Below, in pieces: positions 33,413 to 37,476 of a stretch of DNA of 37,476 nucleotides. The stretch is from positions 1 through 37,476 of the IMG/VR virus record IMGVR_UViG_3300024475_000160, one strand, 5' to 3'. Position 1 is the stretch's first letter; every line of letters starts with the position of its first letter. Position numbers and translations under genes: made by a program. The DNA comes from a virus. The notes under the pieces are model-generated. The model saw only the letters and a list, made by a program, of their open reading frames with translations. It made no database searches and had not been told where the DNA came from.

Positions 33413-33459
33413 AGTGCCTCTATATAGTCTATATAGTACTGAGTAGCCTTAATCAGTTC

Positions 33460-33516
33460 TTGGTACAAAAAGTAGTAACTGAATACAATAGTAATTTGGT
33501 ACAAAAAATAGTAACT
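33460..33516. repeat. 21-bp direct repeat pair in the late leader
   Basis: TTGGTACAAAAA, then G or A, then TAGTAACT occurs at 33460-33480 and 33496-33516, 36 bp apart. Related text (TAGTAACTGAATA and TTTTTTTGTAC) appears again at 37180-37220, downstream of the other leftward promoter. It lies in the untranslated leader of the late transcript, so it may bind a regulator. Confidence 0.65.
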
Positions 33517-33519
33517 ACA

Positions 33520-33581
33520 AATAAATAGTTATTAGTACATATCACTTAGTAATAAATAGTTATTAGTACATATCACTTAGT
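33520..33581. repeat. Perfect 31-bp tandem repeat in the late leader
   Basis: The unit at 33520-33550 (starts AATAAATAGTTATTAGTACA, ends CACTTAGT) is repeated without change at 33551-33581. It lies between the late promoter and the first late gene. A partial inverted match (GTAACTATTTATTTA) lies at 33639-33653. Confidence 0.85.
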
Positions 33582-33700
33582 AACAATCAGTTTGTTTGGT
33601 ATGAAAATAACAATGGTTGTTCTTTGTGGTGTACCAGTAACTATTTATTTATCTACTTAGCTACACAGTTCTATATAGTGCTTGTTATACTATGCAGTAG

Positions 33701-33729
33701 ATTTTAACATATTTTTATTAAAAAGTCAA
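33701..33729 (-). promoter_or_regulatory. Sigma-70-type promoter of the main late operon
   Basis: On the minus strand: TTGACT (33729-33724), a 17-bp spacer, then TAAAAT (33706-33701). Upstream sequence AATAATACTTGAC is the same as at the promoters at 28200 and 34698. It drives the terminase-portal genes after a leader of about 280 bases that is full of repeats. Confidence 0.75.
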
Positions 33730-33921
33730 GTATTATTTTAATTATATTACTAGATATTCTCTAAGCCCTTGTTTTATATACTAGCGAGTATTGAGTAGTC
33801 TGGTTATTGTACTAGTATTTAGCTCCTTCCTAGCAACTCAGCGGAATTGAGTAGTACTTTAGAGTAACCGCAATCGCAATTTTTATTTTATAGGCACTGA
33901 ATAATAGCTTAGTTAGAAAAG

Positions 33922-34024
33922 TTATCCACACAAGATGAGAATCATTCGCATTTAGAGTAGTATATAAATCAATAAGTTACAGACTTATCCACAAGTTATC
34001 CACACAAGATGAGAATCATTCTTA
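33922..34024 (+). promoter_or_regulatory. DnaA boxes with adjoining Fur-like dyads, duplicated element
   Basis: TTATCCACA occurs at 33922-33930, 33985-33993 and 33996-34004 (the last two 11 bp apart). A 26-bp segment starting GTTATCCACACAAG is repeated exactly at 33921 and 33995. In each copy the box is followed 5 bp later by a 15-bp dyad: TGAGAATCATTCGCA (33936-33950) and TGAGAATCATTCTTA (34010-34024), each one base from perfect symmetry (TGAGAAT-C-ATTCTCA) and similar to Fur boxes. Confidence 0.7.
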
Positions 34025-34096
34025 TTTAGAAATAATTTCCTTAATTATATAGTCAATAAATTGACGCTAAGCAGTTACTTAGTCCTACGTAGTCCT

Positions 34097-34176
34097 AAGT
34101 AGTTACTTAGTTACTGCCCTATTGCTTTTTAGCTCTAAGTAGTTACTCAGGTACTGCCCTATTGCTTTTTAGCTCT
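34097..34176. repeat. 40-bp tandem repeat
   Basis: Two copies, 34097-34136 and 34137-34176, differ at two bases. Each starts AAGTAGTTACT and ends CCCTATTGCTTTTTAGCTCT. Shorter related units (TAGTCCTA) lie just before. Function unknown; it lies between the two DnaA-box groups. Confidence 0.85.
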
Positions 34177-34259
34177 ATTTTGTATCTGGGCAGGTACTAC
34201 TATATTACTGAATAGCTCTACCCCTCCCCCGCCCGCCTGAATAGATTGTGTTGTTTCTA

Positions 34260-34417
34260 TACCACACTGAATAGTTATCCACAGGTTACTAACAAGTTAT
34301 CCACAGCTCTGTTGTTTATGTACCACACTGTAGCATCTATACCACACTGCATAGTGTGTTGTTGTATTTATACCACACTGAATAGTTATGCACAGGTTAC
34401 TAACAAGTTATCCACAG
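34260..34417 (+). promoter_or_regulatory. Duplicated DnaA-box pairs with TACCACACTG repeats
   Basis: A 47-bp unit starting TACCACACTGAATAGTTAT occurs at 34260-34306 and 34371-34417, with one difference. Each has two boxes 22 bp apart: TTATCCACA at 34275 and 34297; TTATGCACA at 34386 and TTATCCACA at 34408. TACCACACTG occurs twice more (34321, 34340), the last forming a hairpin CACACT-GCAT-AGTGTG. The 22-bp phasing puts the boxes on one DNA face. Probable origin or DnaA-binding site. Confidence 0.78.
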
Positions 34418-34430
34418 GGATAGTATAGCA

Positions 34431-34528
34431 TGCACCATAACAGTGCAATGCACCAATGTAGTGCTATGTAGTATGCACCATAACAGTGCAGAGCTGGTTA
34501 GTGCTGTGTAGTGCACCGTAATAGTGCA
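34431..34528. promoter_or_regulatory. Array of four 17-bp operator-like dyads (TGCAC-N7-GTGCA)
   Basis: TGCACCATAACAGTGCA at 34431-34447 and 34474-34490, TGCACCAATGTAGTGCT at 34449-34465, TGCACCGTAATAGTGCA at 34512-34528. All have 5-bp arms and a 7-bp centre. Repeated dyads of one length upstream of an early promoter are typical of binding sites for a dimeric repressor or activator. No gene for that protein is certain; the HTH protein at 4239 or a host factor are candidates. Confidence 0.72.
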
Positions 34529-34558
34529 GGTGTGAGGGTCGATGCAGGTGCTGTACAG

Positions 34559-34591
34559 TGTCTTTACAGTGCCTTTATAGCGCCTTTACAG
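34559..34591 (+). repeat. Three 11-bp tandem repeats before a TTGACA
   Basis: TGTCTTTACAG, TGCCTTTATAG and CGCCTTTACAG follow each other without a gap, one helical turn each, and are followed 3 bases later by TTGACA (34595-34600). A matching -10 is poor (TATTCG after 18 bp), so this may be an activator-dependent promoter or a binding array. Confidence 0.55.
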
Positions 34592-34697
34592 TGCTTGACA
34601 AGCGCCACCATTCTATGCTATTCGTGCGCACGCGCGTTCCTTTATATAGGAGGCTTCCTTGTCTATTCAGTGCTATAAAATAAATTTGAAATAATAC

Positions 34698-34725
34698 TTG
34701 ACATCTTTATTTGGTGCTGTATTAT
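34698..34725 (+). promoter_or_regulatory. Strong early promoter
   Basis: TTGACA (34698-34703), 16-bp spacer, TATTAT (34720-34725), preceded by AATAATAC and an A/T-rich tract. It lies about 50 bases before the GP88-like gene and should drive the early block to 37174. Confidence 0.85.
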
Positions 34726-34773
34726 TGGAACCGTAAACAAAATTAATTGGCTACAAACAAAGGCGATACTATT

Positions 34774-35445
34774 ATGCAACTACTAACTAAATCATCTGCA
34801 AAGATAGACAAAAGCCAGAACGGTGAATGGCTCAATGCTGTTATGTACCTTGAGCCAGACTATAACAAACAGGTATGCCTAGCGGCTTCACCATCATGCA
34901 AGGCTAATTGTCTAAAAAACTCGGGTAGAATGGCTATGAGCAATGCAGTTAACGCAAGGTACAACAGAACTGAACTATACTTCAAACGTCCTGAATTGTT
35001 CACTATGCTACTAAAGGGCGAAATTGCTGCGTTATTGTACCAAGCAGAAAAGGAAGGGAAACGTCTTGCTATGAGACTAAATGGCACAAGTGATATTGAT
35101 TGGACTAGTATCTATGAGGTATTCCCAGAAGTGCAGTTTTATGAGTACACAAAGAGACCTGACTTGATTAATAAGAATAGTCTGGACAACGTGCATTTTA
35201 CATTTAGTCGCACAGAGAATACAAAAGACAGCACAATCGCTAGAATGATTAAGAAAGGCGTGAACGTGTCTGTAGTGTTCGGGCAACGTGTACCGAGTAC
35301 CTTCAAAGGCTTACCAGTTATCGACGGTGACAAGCACGACCGACGCTTTGAGGATACTAAAGGCAGCGTTATAGGTCTTAAGTTCAAAGGCACAAACGCA
35401 CGTAAACAGGATAGCATTGAAACTGGCTTTGCTGTTACTGATTAG
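34774..35445 (+). CDS. GP88/DUF7227-like phage protein (223 aa)
   Basis: First early gene. I place the start at ATG 34774, after ACAAAGG, the same leader as in the next genes; a TTG at 34747 is a weaker choice. The sequence follows phage proteins called GP88/DUF7227: VCLAASPSCKANCLKNSGRM with three Cys, a helix ARYNRTELYFKRPELFTMLL, then RLNGTSDIDW and a C-terminal DGDKHDRRFED. Function unknown. The close-set Cys residues (CX6CX3C) and conserved His/Asp could bind metal. Strong early expression suggests a role in host takeover. Confidence 0.85.
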   Translation: MQLLTKSSAKIDKSQNGEWLNAVMYLEPDYNKQVCLAASPSCKANCLKNSGRMAMSNAVNARYNRTELYFKRPELFTMLLKGEIAALLYQAEKEGKRLAMRLNGTSDIDWTSIYEVFPEVQFYEYTKRPDLINKNSLDNVHFTFSRTENTKDSTIARMIKKGVNVSVVFGQRVPSTFKGLPVIDGDKHDRRFEDTKGSVIGLKFKGTNARKQDSIETGFAVTD

Positions 35446-36423: not shown

Positions 36424-36834
36424 ATGAATATATGCAAAGAATTATACAATAAAAATGCCATTGGTAATCCGTTCGAGTTTACCTTCACCAAACGTAATGG
36501 CGACGAGCGCGTTTTAAATGGGACACTAGTAGAAAGACATACTGACTACGTAATAGTCGATGAAAAGGGTGGGTTGATACGTAGAATCAACCTAAACAGT
36601 ATCAATACGTCAAGAGAATTAAAATGGTACGATGCAATACCTGATTGCGGTTTGCTGTGTTATGTATGGGATGATGTTGTTATTCATAATCAAGTCGCCC
36701 TCGTTGTTGATTACGATGAGCACTCACTGTATCCGTTCAAAACACCTAATTTGGTATTCAAGAACGCTGAACCAGTACCAGCAGATACTGTACACCAGTT
36801 ACTACAAGCAAAGCTAGAGAGCTATGGTCAGTGA
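36424..36834 (+). CDS. Hypothetical protein, early (136 aa)
   Basis: TTGGAGA lies about 7 bases before the ATG. A beta-rich N-terminal half (FEFTFTKRNGDERVLNGTLV, TDYVIVDEKGGLIRRINLNS) resembles small SH3- or Sm-like barrels found in early phage proteins; the C-terminal half has WDDVVIHNQVALVVDYDEHS. The pattern may correspond to a DUF2693-like family, but I am not sure. It ends 2 bases before the DnaA-box array. Confidence 0.68.
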   Translation: MNICKELYNKNAIGNPFEFTFTKRNGDERVLNGTLVERHTDYVIVDEKGGLIRRINLNSINTSRELKWYDAIPDCGLLCYVWDDVVIHNQVALVVDYDEHSLYPFKTPNLVFKNAEPVPADTVHQLLQAKLESYGQ

Positions 36835-36835
36835 C

Positions 36836-36916
36836 TTATCCACAGGCTTATCCACAGACTTATCCACAGACTTATCCACAGGCTTATCCACAGACTTATC
36901 CACAGACTTATCCACA
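36836..36916 (+). promoter_or_regulatory. Array of seven perfect DnaA boxes, 12-bp period
   Basis: TTATCCACA occurs at 36836, 36848, 36860, 36872, 36884, 36896 and 36908, all in the same orientation with exact 12-bp steps. Linkers follow the order GGC, GAC, GAC, GGC, GAC, GAC, giving a 36-bp higher-order unit. It fills the gap between two genes. Because 12 is a multiple of 3 it is also open as DLST/GLST repeats, joined to the next gene from an ATG at 36824. It may be an origin, a DnaA sink, or a regulator of the next gene. Confidence 0.9.
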
Positions 36917-36928
36917 AGGAATATAATT

Positions 36929-37174
36929 ATGCACTGTTTATCATGTAATAACCCGTTAACAGACTTTGAAGCAACTAAGAAGACAACAGATGGCGAGTAT
37001 TTAGACTTATGTAATGCGTGCCATGGTACAATAAATGATGATATTGATGTCGATGTGCGTTATGACTTAATGACCGAAAGAGATACAGTGCTATTACAGG
37101 AGGAGGATGCAGCACCATATAAAGATTTCCGTTTAAGTGCTTATATAGACTATATAGATGATGCAGAGGATTGA
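36929..37174 (+). CDS. Small zinc-finger-like protein, last early gene (81 aa)
   Basis: I chose ATG 36929, preceded by AAGGA about 9 bases upstream; a longer frame from 36824 would add the DLST repeats coded by the DnaA boxes. The N-terminus has two CxxC pairs (HCLSCNNPL and LCNACHG), a typical zinc ribbon. The rest is very acidic (IDDAED end). Such proteins may bind host RNA polymerase or another factor, but none is identified. Confidence 0.72.
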   Translation: MHCLSCNNPLTDFEATKKTTDGEYLDLCNACHGTINDDIDVDVRYDLMTERDTVLLQEEDAAPYKDFRLSAYIDYIDDAED

Positions 37175-37333: not shown

Positions 37334-37362
37334 TTTACAGTGTGAATAATTGTTGATATAGT
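37334..37362 (+). promoter_or_regulatory. Sigma-70-type promoter for the rightward gene block
   Basis: TTTACA (37334-37339), a 17-bp spacer, then TATAGT (37357-37362). On the circle the -10 lies at 22-27 and the -35 spans the junction. It sits just upstream of the gene at 77 and points into the long rightward unit that ends at 13129. Each hexamer differs from consensus by one base. The call is from sequence only. Confidence 0.65.
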
Positions 37363-37476
37363 GTACTTAAATTAATAATGAAGCAGAGATATGACGAAAT
37401 AGGAGAGCAGTATGCCACATATTACATGGGATCAAGAAACTAAGGACAAGTGGGTTGCGATTATGCAAGCTCACCA
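37336..37476. repeat. Terminal direct repeat, right copy
   Basis: Exact second copy of bases 1-141. It holds the promoter -10 region, the ribosome binding site and the first 22 codons of the gene that starts at 77. It should be removed when closing the genome, which leaves a unit of 37,335 bp. Confidence 0.95.

Follow-up and report, generated by a model that had tools for sequence, protein, structure and literature searches.

Bacterial oriC contains closely spaced DnaA boxes, which lie on mixed strands and can be accompanied by DnaA-trios and an AT-rich element. In E. coli, DnaA is also titrated by box clusters outside oriC, of which datA is one; it combines two consensus boxes with misfit boxes around a required IHF site. 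Direct DnaA boxes are found near replication functions in the origins of plasmids and prophage-plasmids, e.g. RK2 and P1 oriR. The consensus DnaA box is TTWTNCACA, and extra box copies titrate DnaA, with box-carrying plasmids raising the initiation mass (PMC5835720). In phages, a recent description of the T5 injection stop signal counts DnaA boxes as one of its features (PMC13250531), and single cases are therefore already known; beyond this T5 remark, we found no paper in the open literature on phased DnaA-box arrays as a general phage feature, and the wider pattern described below is apparently undescribed.

The window analysed here is the whole 37,476-nucleotide stretch of an IMG/VR virus record. 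Its ends share 141 bp (1-141 = 37336-37476), and the contig therefore closes into a circle; 141 is also a common assembly k-mer. The genome encodes a family A polymerase, a T7-type primase/helicase, an exonuclease and endonuclease I, as well as a class I ribonucleotide reductase and a C5 cytosine methylase, and relatives of the polymerase include those of Pelagibacter and Roseobacter phages. A first-pass annotation, made from the letters alone, had called the phage T7-like. The replication genes fit this label, but no single-subunit RNA polymerase turned up in the proteins tested. The late genes (portal, terminase, capsid, tail) are divergent and lie on the opposite strand from the early and replication genes. 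Near the right end of the window lie the following features:

36424..36834, plus strand: 136-aa open reading frame, which stops 1 bp ahead of the array
36836..36916, plus strand: array of seven TTATCCACA DnaA boxes at 12-bp steps, untranslated
36929..37174, plus strand: 81-aa zinc-finger-like gene, with the Shine-Dalgarno sequence AGGA at 36917-36920

The array thus occupies the gap between the stop codon of the 136-aa frame and the Shine-Dalgarno sequence of the zinc-finger gene. Exact matches to TTATCCACA start at 36836, 36848, 36860, 36872, 36884, 36896 and 36908, all on the plus strand, the linkers run GGC GAC GAC GGC GAC GAC, and Tandem Repeats Finder gave 7.0 copies with a period of 12. 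These results confirm the annotation's description of seven boxes in one orientation at strict 12-bp steps, with linkers in a repeating GGC/GAC/GAC order. Its exclusion of chance was also borne out, as no other 9-mer in the genome is so strongly over-represented as TTATCCACA (14 seen vs 0.27 expected from a second-order Markov estimate), other permutations of the same letters occurring at most 7 times each. By its match to TTWTNCACA, TTATCCACA is a consensus DnaA box, as the annotation had it, and the genome carries several such matches beyond chance, all 14 of them perfect.

Two further suggestions of the annotation fared less well. One, drawn from the triplet-compatible repeat unit, was that the array may be translated as DLST repeats, and an open frame does run from an ATG at 36824 through the array into the zinc-finger gene. 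This idea we regard as almost certainly wrong. The listed homologs of the zinc-finger protein all share the start methionine (M[H/R/K/V]C...) and have their own Shine-Dalgarno sequence, none of those listed has an N-terminal extension, so that the reading frame is not kept, and the box clusters of relatives are irregularly spaced, at distances not divisible by 3. We take the array to be untranslated because these homologs start at the position of ATG 36929 (the MHC methionine). None of the listed homologs has DnaA boxes directly upstream. In this place the 12-bp array is thus a peculiarity of this phage, and the suggestion that DnaA controls the zinc-finger gene specifically is not supported.

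An RNA-hairpin role for the 12-bp array was rejected, because the array transcript folds worse than 199 of 200 shuffles, i.e. it is less structured than they are. A distant search of PLSDB gave no plasmid relatives of the array at that sensitivity. On the minus strand, a perfect TTGACA-17-TATAAT promoter with an extended TG (37290-37262) is directed leftward through the zinc-finger gene and the 12-bp array, opposing the early operon.

The annotation had treated the array as a lone element and had missed a second cluster, which lies between the late and early operons:

33413..34770, no strand: divergent intergenic region from terS (first gene of the late operon, minus strand) to gp88 (early operon, plus strand)
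33922..33930, plus strand: DnaA box TTATCCACA of the second cluster
33936..33950, plus strand: Fur-like palindrome TGAGAATCATTCGCA, weak, as shuffles reach the same count
33967..33979, plus strand: IHF-consensus match, between the box at 33922 and the boxes at 33985/33996
33985..34004, plus strand: pair of DnaA boxes of the second cluster, 11 bp apart (33985, 33996)
34010..34024, plus strand: Fur-like palindrome TGAGAATCATTCTTA, also weak
34178..34237, plus strand: TTTTGTATCTGGG ... CCCCTCCCCCGCCCGCC block, with counterparts in relatives both with and without boxes
34275..34305, plus strand: DnaA boxes at 34275 and 34297 (22 bp apart), flanking a degenerate TTACTAACA
34386..34416, plus strand: TTATGCACA (34386) and TTATCCACA (34408), 22 bp apart
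34431..34528, plus strand: NtrC-like palindromes (GCAC-N7-GTGC) in four copies, with no others elsewhere in the genome
34698..34725, plus strand: promoter-like TTGACA-16-TATTAT ahead of gp88
34774..35445, plus strand: GP88-family gene (PF17338), the first early gene

The second cluster comprises six perfect TTATCCACA and one TTATGCACA, all on the plus strand (starts at 33922, 33985, 33996, 34275, 34297, 34386 for TTATGCACA, and 34408), and its 34386-34416 unit is a near-repeat of the 34275-34305 unit. One further isolated box lies at 1360 on the minus strand. The intergenic region is 1358 bp long with 35% GC, falling to 28% GC in the first 0.5 kb, and in its AT-rich part near terS (33460-33583) there are two direct-repeat families (~36 bp and ~31 bp) with two copies each.

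This setting raises an explanation that is quite possible for this family, although on balance we consider it doubtful: the intergenic cluster would be all or part of the phage origin, where host DnaA would open the AT-rich region 33413-34770 for loading of the phage primase/helicase and polymerase, with the 12-bp array as a second or auxiliary site. In its favour, a large AT-rich intergenic region lies at the point where the operons diverge, and the cumulative GC-skew minimum falls near 34-35 kb, although GC skew is confounded by gene orientation. The failure to find, among the proteins tested, a phage RNA polymerase for T7-style priming also favours an origin of this kind. Should the arrays be origins, they would reveal how replication starts with a T7-type replisome when the phage has no RNA polymerase of its own. 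P1 oriR and RK2-type origins resemble the locus in their direct DnaA boxes near replication functions, but a Rep protein or iterons for one were not identified in this phage.

Relatives were collected via the polymerase, the portal, GP88 and the box pattern. At least 12 of them have 3-11 boxes at the same terS-early junction, ~260-780 bp from the terS start, and almost all of these boxes point to the early genes, the exception being L165, in which two are reversed. The 36.3-kb relative G060 and a closely similar contig, L186, each resemble the window in having two clusters: one of seven boxes at the junction and, ~2 kb deeper in the early region, one of three. This shared use of one site in many relatives, together with the paired clusters (7 + 3 boxes), is consistent with an origin. 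However, the junction is free of TTATCCACA in seven syntenic relatives that share the replication genes, so that the boxes lack the conservation across all such relatives that marks an oriC-type site. The TTTTGTG... and C-rich context beside the boxes is present in members both with and without them. In L099 a six-box block stands where L085 and L039 run directly from CCCCGCCT into GTTGGCAC, and L038 has other sequence, with no boxes, at that position; box content also turns over between L111 and L124. A TerL tree of 20 members calls for five or more gains or losses of the boxes, four of them forced by well-supported branches; most of the members had been picked up by the pattern scan, and box-positive loci are therefore over-represented. 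Within the family the box array is thus an accessory element, and its repeated gain and loss argues against an origin.

The annotation had held that relatives without the array would count against a DnaA role. As far as the 36.8-kb array is concerned they do lack it, but terS-early boxes recur in many relatives and are missing from others. Unlike the 12-bp array, the intergenic cluster is a recurring element at one family site; the 12-bp array is the most regular instance, yet not the most informative. In two complete-looking relatives, G067 (36,327 bp) and G060 (36,338 bp), the contig end overlap lies within the box array, which could be either an assembly effect or a physical genome end.

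We compared the phage arrays with bacterial ones using a four-box pattern, which returned 54 stretches from 257 Gb of bacterial and archaeal genomes and 69 from IMG/VR, these being counts and not per-base rates. The gene dnaA or dnaN adjoins the array in 5 of the 7 bacterial loci checked, and the bacterial arrays are therefore oriC-type. Among the matches listed, boxes were divided between strands 329 vs 148 in bacterial arrays and 571 vs 10 in phage arrays, but the scan patterns force three or four same-strand boxes per match and the raw counts therefore overstate the skew. Without the forced boxes, the minority strand made up ~5% in phages (10 of ~209, among the matches listed) and about half in bacteria (148 of ~290). 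DnaA-trio runs followed by AT-rich DNA were present in 6 of 46 bacterial arrays; trio-like runs were present in 2 of 115 phage arrays and, in a wider search, in 5 of 109, three of which are apparently near-copies of one sequence. No AT rise was seen 3' of the phage arrays in either set (115 and 109 arrays), and neither an AT-rich unwinding element nor a DnaA-trio 3' of the boxes is therefore characteristic of them. Although they share closely spaced boxes with oriC, the phage arrays are nearly one-stranded, poor in trios and without an AT rise, and are thus unlike borrowed oriC units. With the bacterial arrays as control, the AT-asymmetry and DnaA-trio tests led us to reject a simple oriC mimic, and the same two features also weigh against an origin for the phage.

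A three-box pattern (TTATCCACA on the same strand with 1-6 bp gaps) matched at least 120 stretches in IMG/VR, whereas the same pattern built from control 9-mers of the same letters matched 3 (reversed 9-mer) and 4 (another permutation). The box steps among the matches listed, which include three loci from a 12-bp pattern, were 11 (n=164) or 12 (n=143), with 13-15 together accounting for 20 and 10 for none, although all were allowed. These results bear on the notion of a neutral tandem repeat that matches the DnaA box by accident. A 12-bp repeat is easily grown by slippage, and turnover such as that between L111 and L124 would fit; however, the second-cluster boxes are not tandem, the control 9-mers are rare, and unrelated lineages converge on one 9-mer at steps of 11 or 12, rarely 13-15 and never 10 among the matches listed. 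We strongly disfavour this notion and consider it highly improbable.

Arrays were also found in GenBank, in Berlinvirus and another Autographiviridae phage, T5-like phages, KVP40-like vibriophages and Microviridae. Unrelated lytic phage lineages therefore seem convergent on phased arrays of the site of the host initiator. Some of these groups replicate by known DnaA-independent routes, which counts against an origin and argues for a role independent of any single mode of replication. In the T5-like phages, BF23 among them, the boxes lie in the left terminal repeat, in Berlinvirus they lie between the terminase and the earliest genes, and in Microviridae they adjoin the replication initiator gene. 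The first two locations, and the inclusion of such boxes in the description of the T5 injection stop signal (PMC13250531), would fit a protein-bound box array that serves as a landmark for DNA entry or packaging, as proposed for T5. The T5 signal resembles the present locus in having DnaA boxes in early noncoding phage DNA, but it belongs to an unrelated phage family, has fewer boxes, and its role is only proposed. Microviruses have no comparable staged entry, and we consider a landmark role very unlikely.

Our preferred explanation, held tentatively and at somewhat less than even probability, is that the clusters are facultative cis-acting sites for the capture or titration of host DnaA. We favour it, with the same reserve, over a phage origin and over control of early genes, for three reasons: the arrays are an accessory among phages with one set of replication genes, they recur across replication modes, and they lack unwinding elements. 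The first-pass annotation had put forward DnaA titration and a DnaA-dependent start site as leading options, and this choice of candidates was right, the second being the less probable. Boxes that all face one way and are phased at 11-12 bp are suggestive of cooperative DnaA assembly and not of independent binding. We infer from the sequence that host DnaA would be loaded cooperatively on early phage DNA by consensus boxes that share one orientation and recur roughly once per helical turn; as phage copies rise, each with 14 boxes, they would draw DnaA, perhaps DnaA-ATP, from oriC and the dnaA regulon, and this withdrawal would delay or stop host initiation, as a viral counterpart of datA or of box-carrying plasmids. 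Such capture would give the phage a protein-free stop of host replication, in the form of an element that can be counted and deleted. The E. coli chromosome has 307 consensus boxes (PMC5835720) compared with 14 per phage genome copy, although E. coli may not be the host, and titration would therefore matter only after phage replication or via large DnaA assemblies. Against capture, uniform orientation and strict phasing exceed the needs of simple titration.

The likeness to datA is that of a DnaA-box cluster outside oriC; the phage arrays differ in consisting of uniform perfect boxes in one orientation at 11-12 bp steps. For a datA-type arrangement with IHF the picture is mixed: the window has one IHF-consensus match between its DnaA boxes, but such a match was not found in the relatives' box clusters.

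The position of the clusters, upstream of the early operon and pointing toward it in nearly all family members, suggests a further alternative: the arrays may tune early phage transcription to the state of the host, with DnaA and other host regulators coupling the early operon to growth or the cell cycle. A sigma70-like promoter ~280 bp downstream of the last box, the NtrC-like palindromes in the region and the sigma54-like promoters in relatives are in its favour. The predicted promoter and the boxes do not overlap, however, the boxes of Berlinvirus and the microviruses run against nearby genes, and the zinc-finger homologs listed do not have the 36.8-kb array in front of them. Like an origin, this alternative is quite possible, but we consider it unlikely, slightly more so than an origin.

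Arrays of sites resembling those for NtrC and sigma54, found in this region of relatives, are a separate and striking lead. Of the spacers from 2 to 15 in the GCAC/GTGC motif, 7 accounts for 12 occurrences across the family intergenic regions and no other for more than 3; TGGCAY/TTGC has 19 matches at spacer 5 and none at other spacers from 0 to 11. Several of the relatives are close kin and these counts are not fully independent. NtrC-enhancer-like palindromes near DnaA boxes are also found in L093, L111, L138 and L186, and L093 carries GCACTATATTGGTGC, which equals an E. coli glnA enhancer core. The published consensus for NtrC is TGCACCAnnnTGGTGCA (PMC8743547) and the published RpoN motif is TGGCACnnTTnTTGC. 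Five relatives (L038, L039, L085, L099 and L111) have 2-4 forward TGGCAY-N5-TTGC each (sigma54-like -24/-12), and L111 has both types of site. With L233 and L226 included, tandem sigma54-type sites are seen in seven terS-early regions, with at most 4 forward per region, which would be unusual for a lytic phage. Judged by their motifs, the NtrC-like and sigma54-like sites may be promoters, decoys or both. Their location together with the DnaA boxes would extend the idea of capture to nitrogen regulation.

It is conceivable, if rather unlikely, that the terS-early region is a host-regulator island, i.e. a place for swappable arrays of sites for host DnaA, NtrC, RpoN (sigma54) and possibly Fur, where phages gain or lose cassettes that capture several global regulators of the host or read the growth and nutrient state of the host at the start of infection. 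Fur-box-like palindromes (TGAGAATNATTCNNA) lie a few bases downstream of DnaA boxes, and the L138 intergenic region has a perfect TGAGAATGATTCTCA. In L239, which has no boxes where its sister L231 has DnaA boxes, there are three copies of a 22-bp repeat (AAGTACTCACTAACATTG...), a possible array for another factor.
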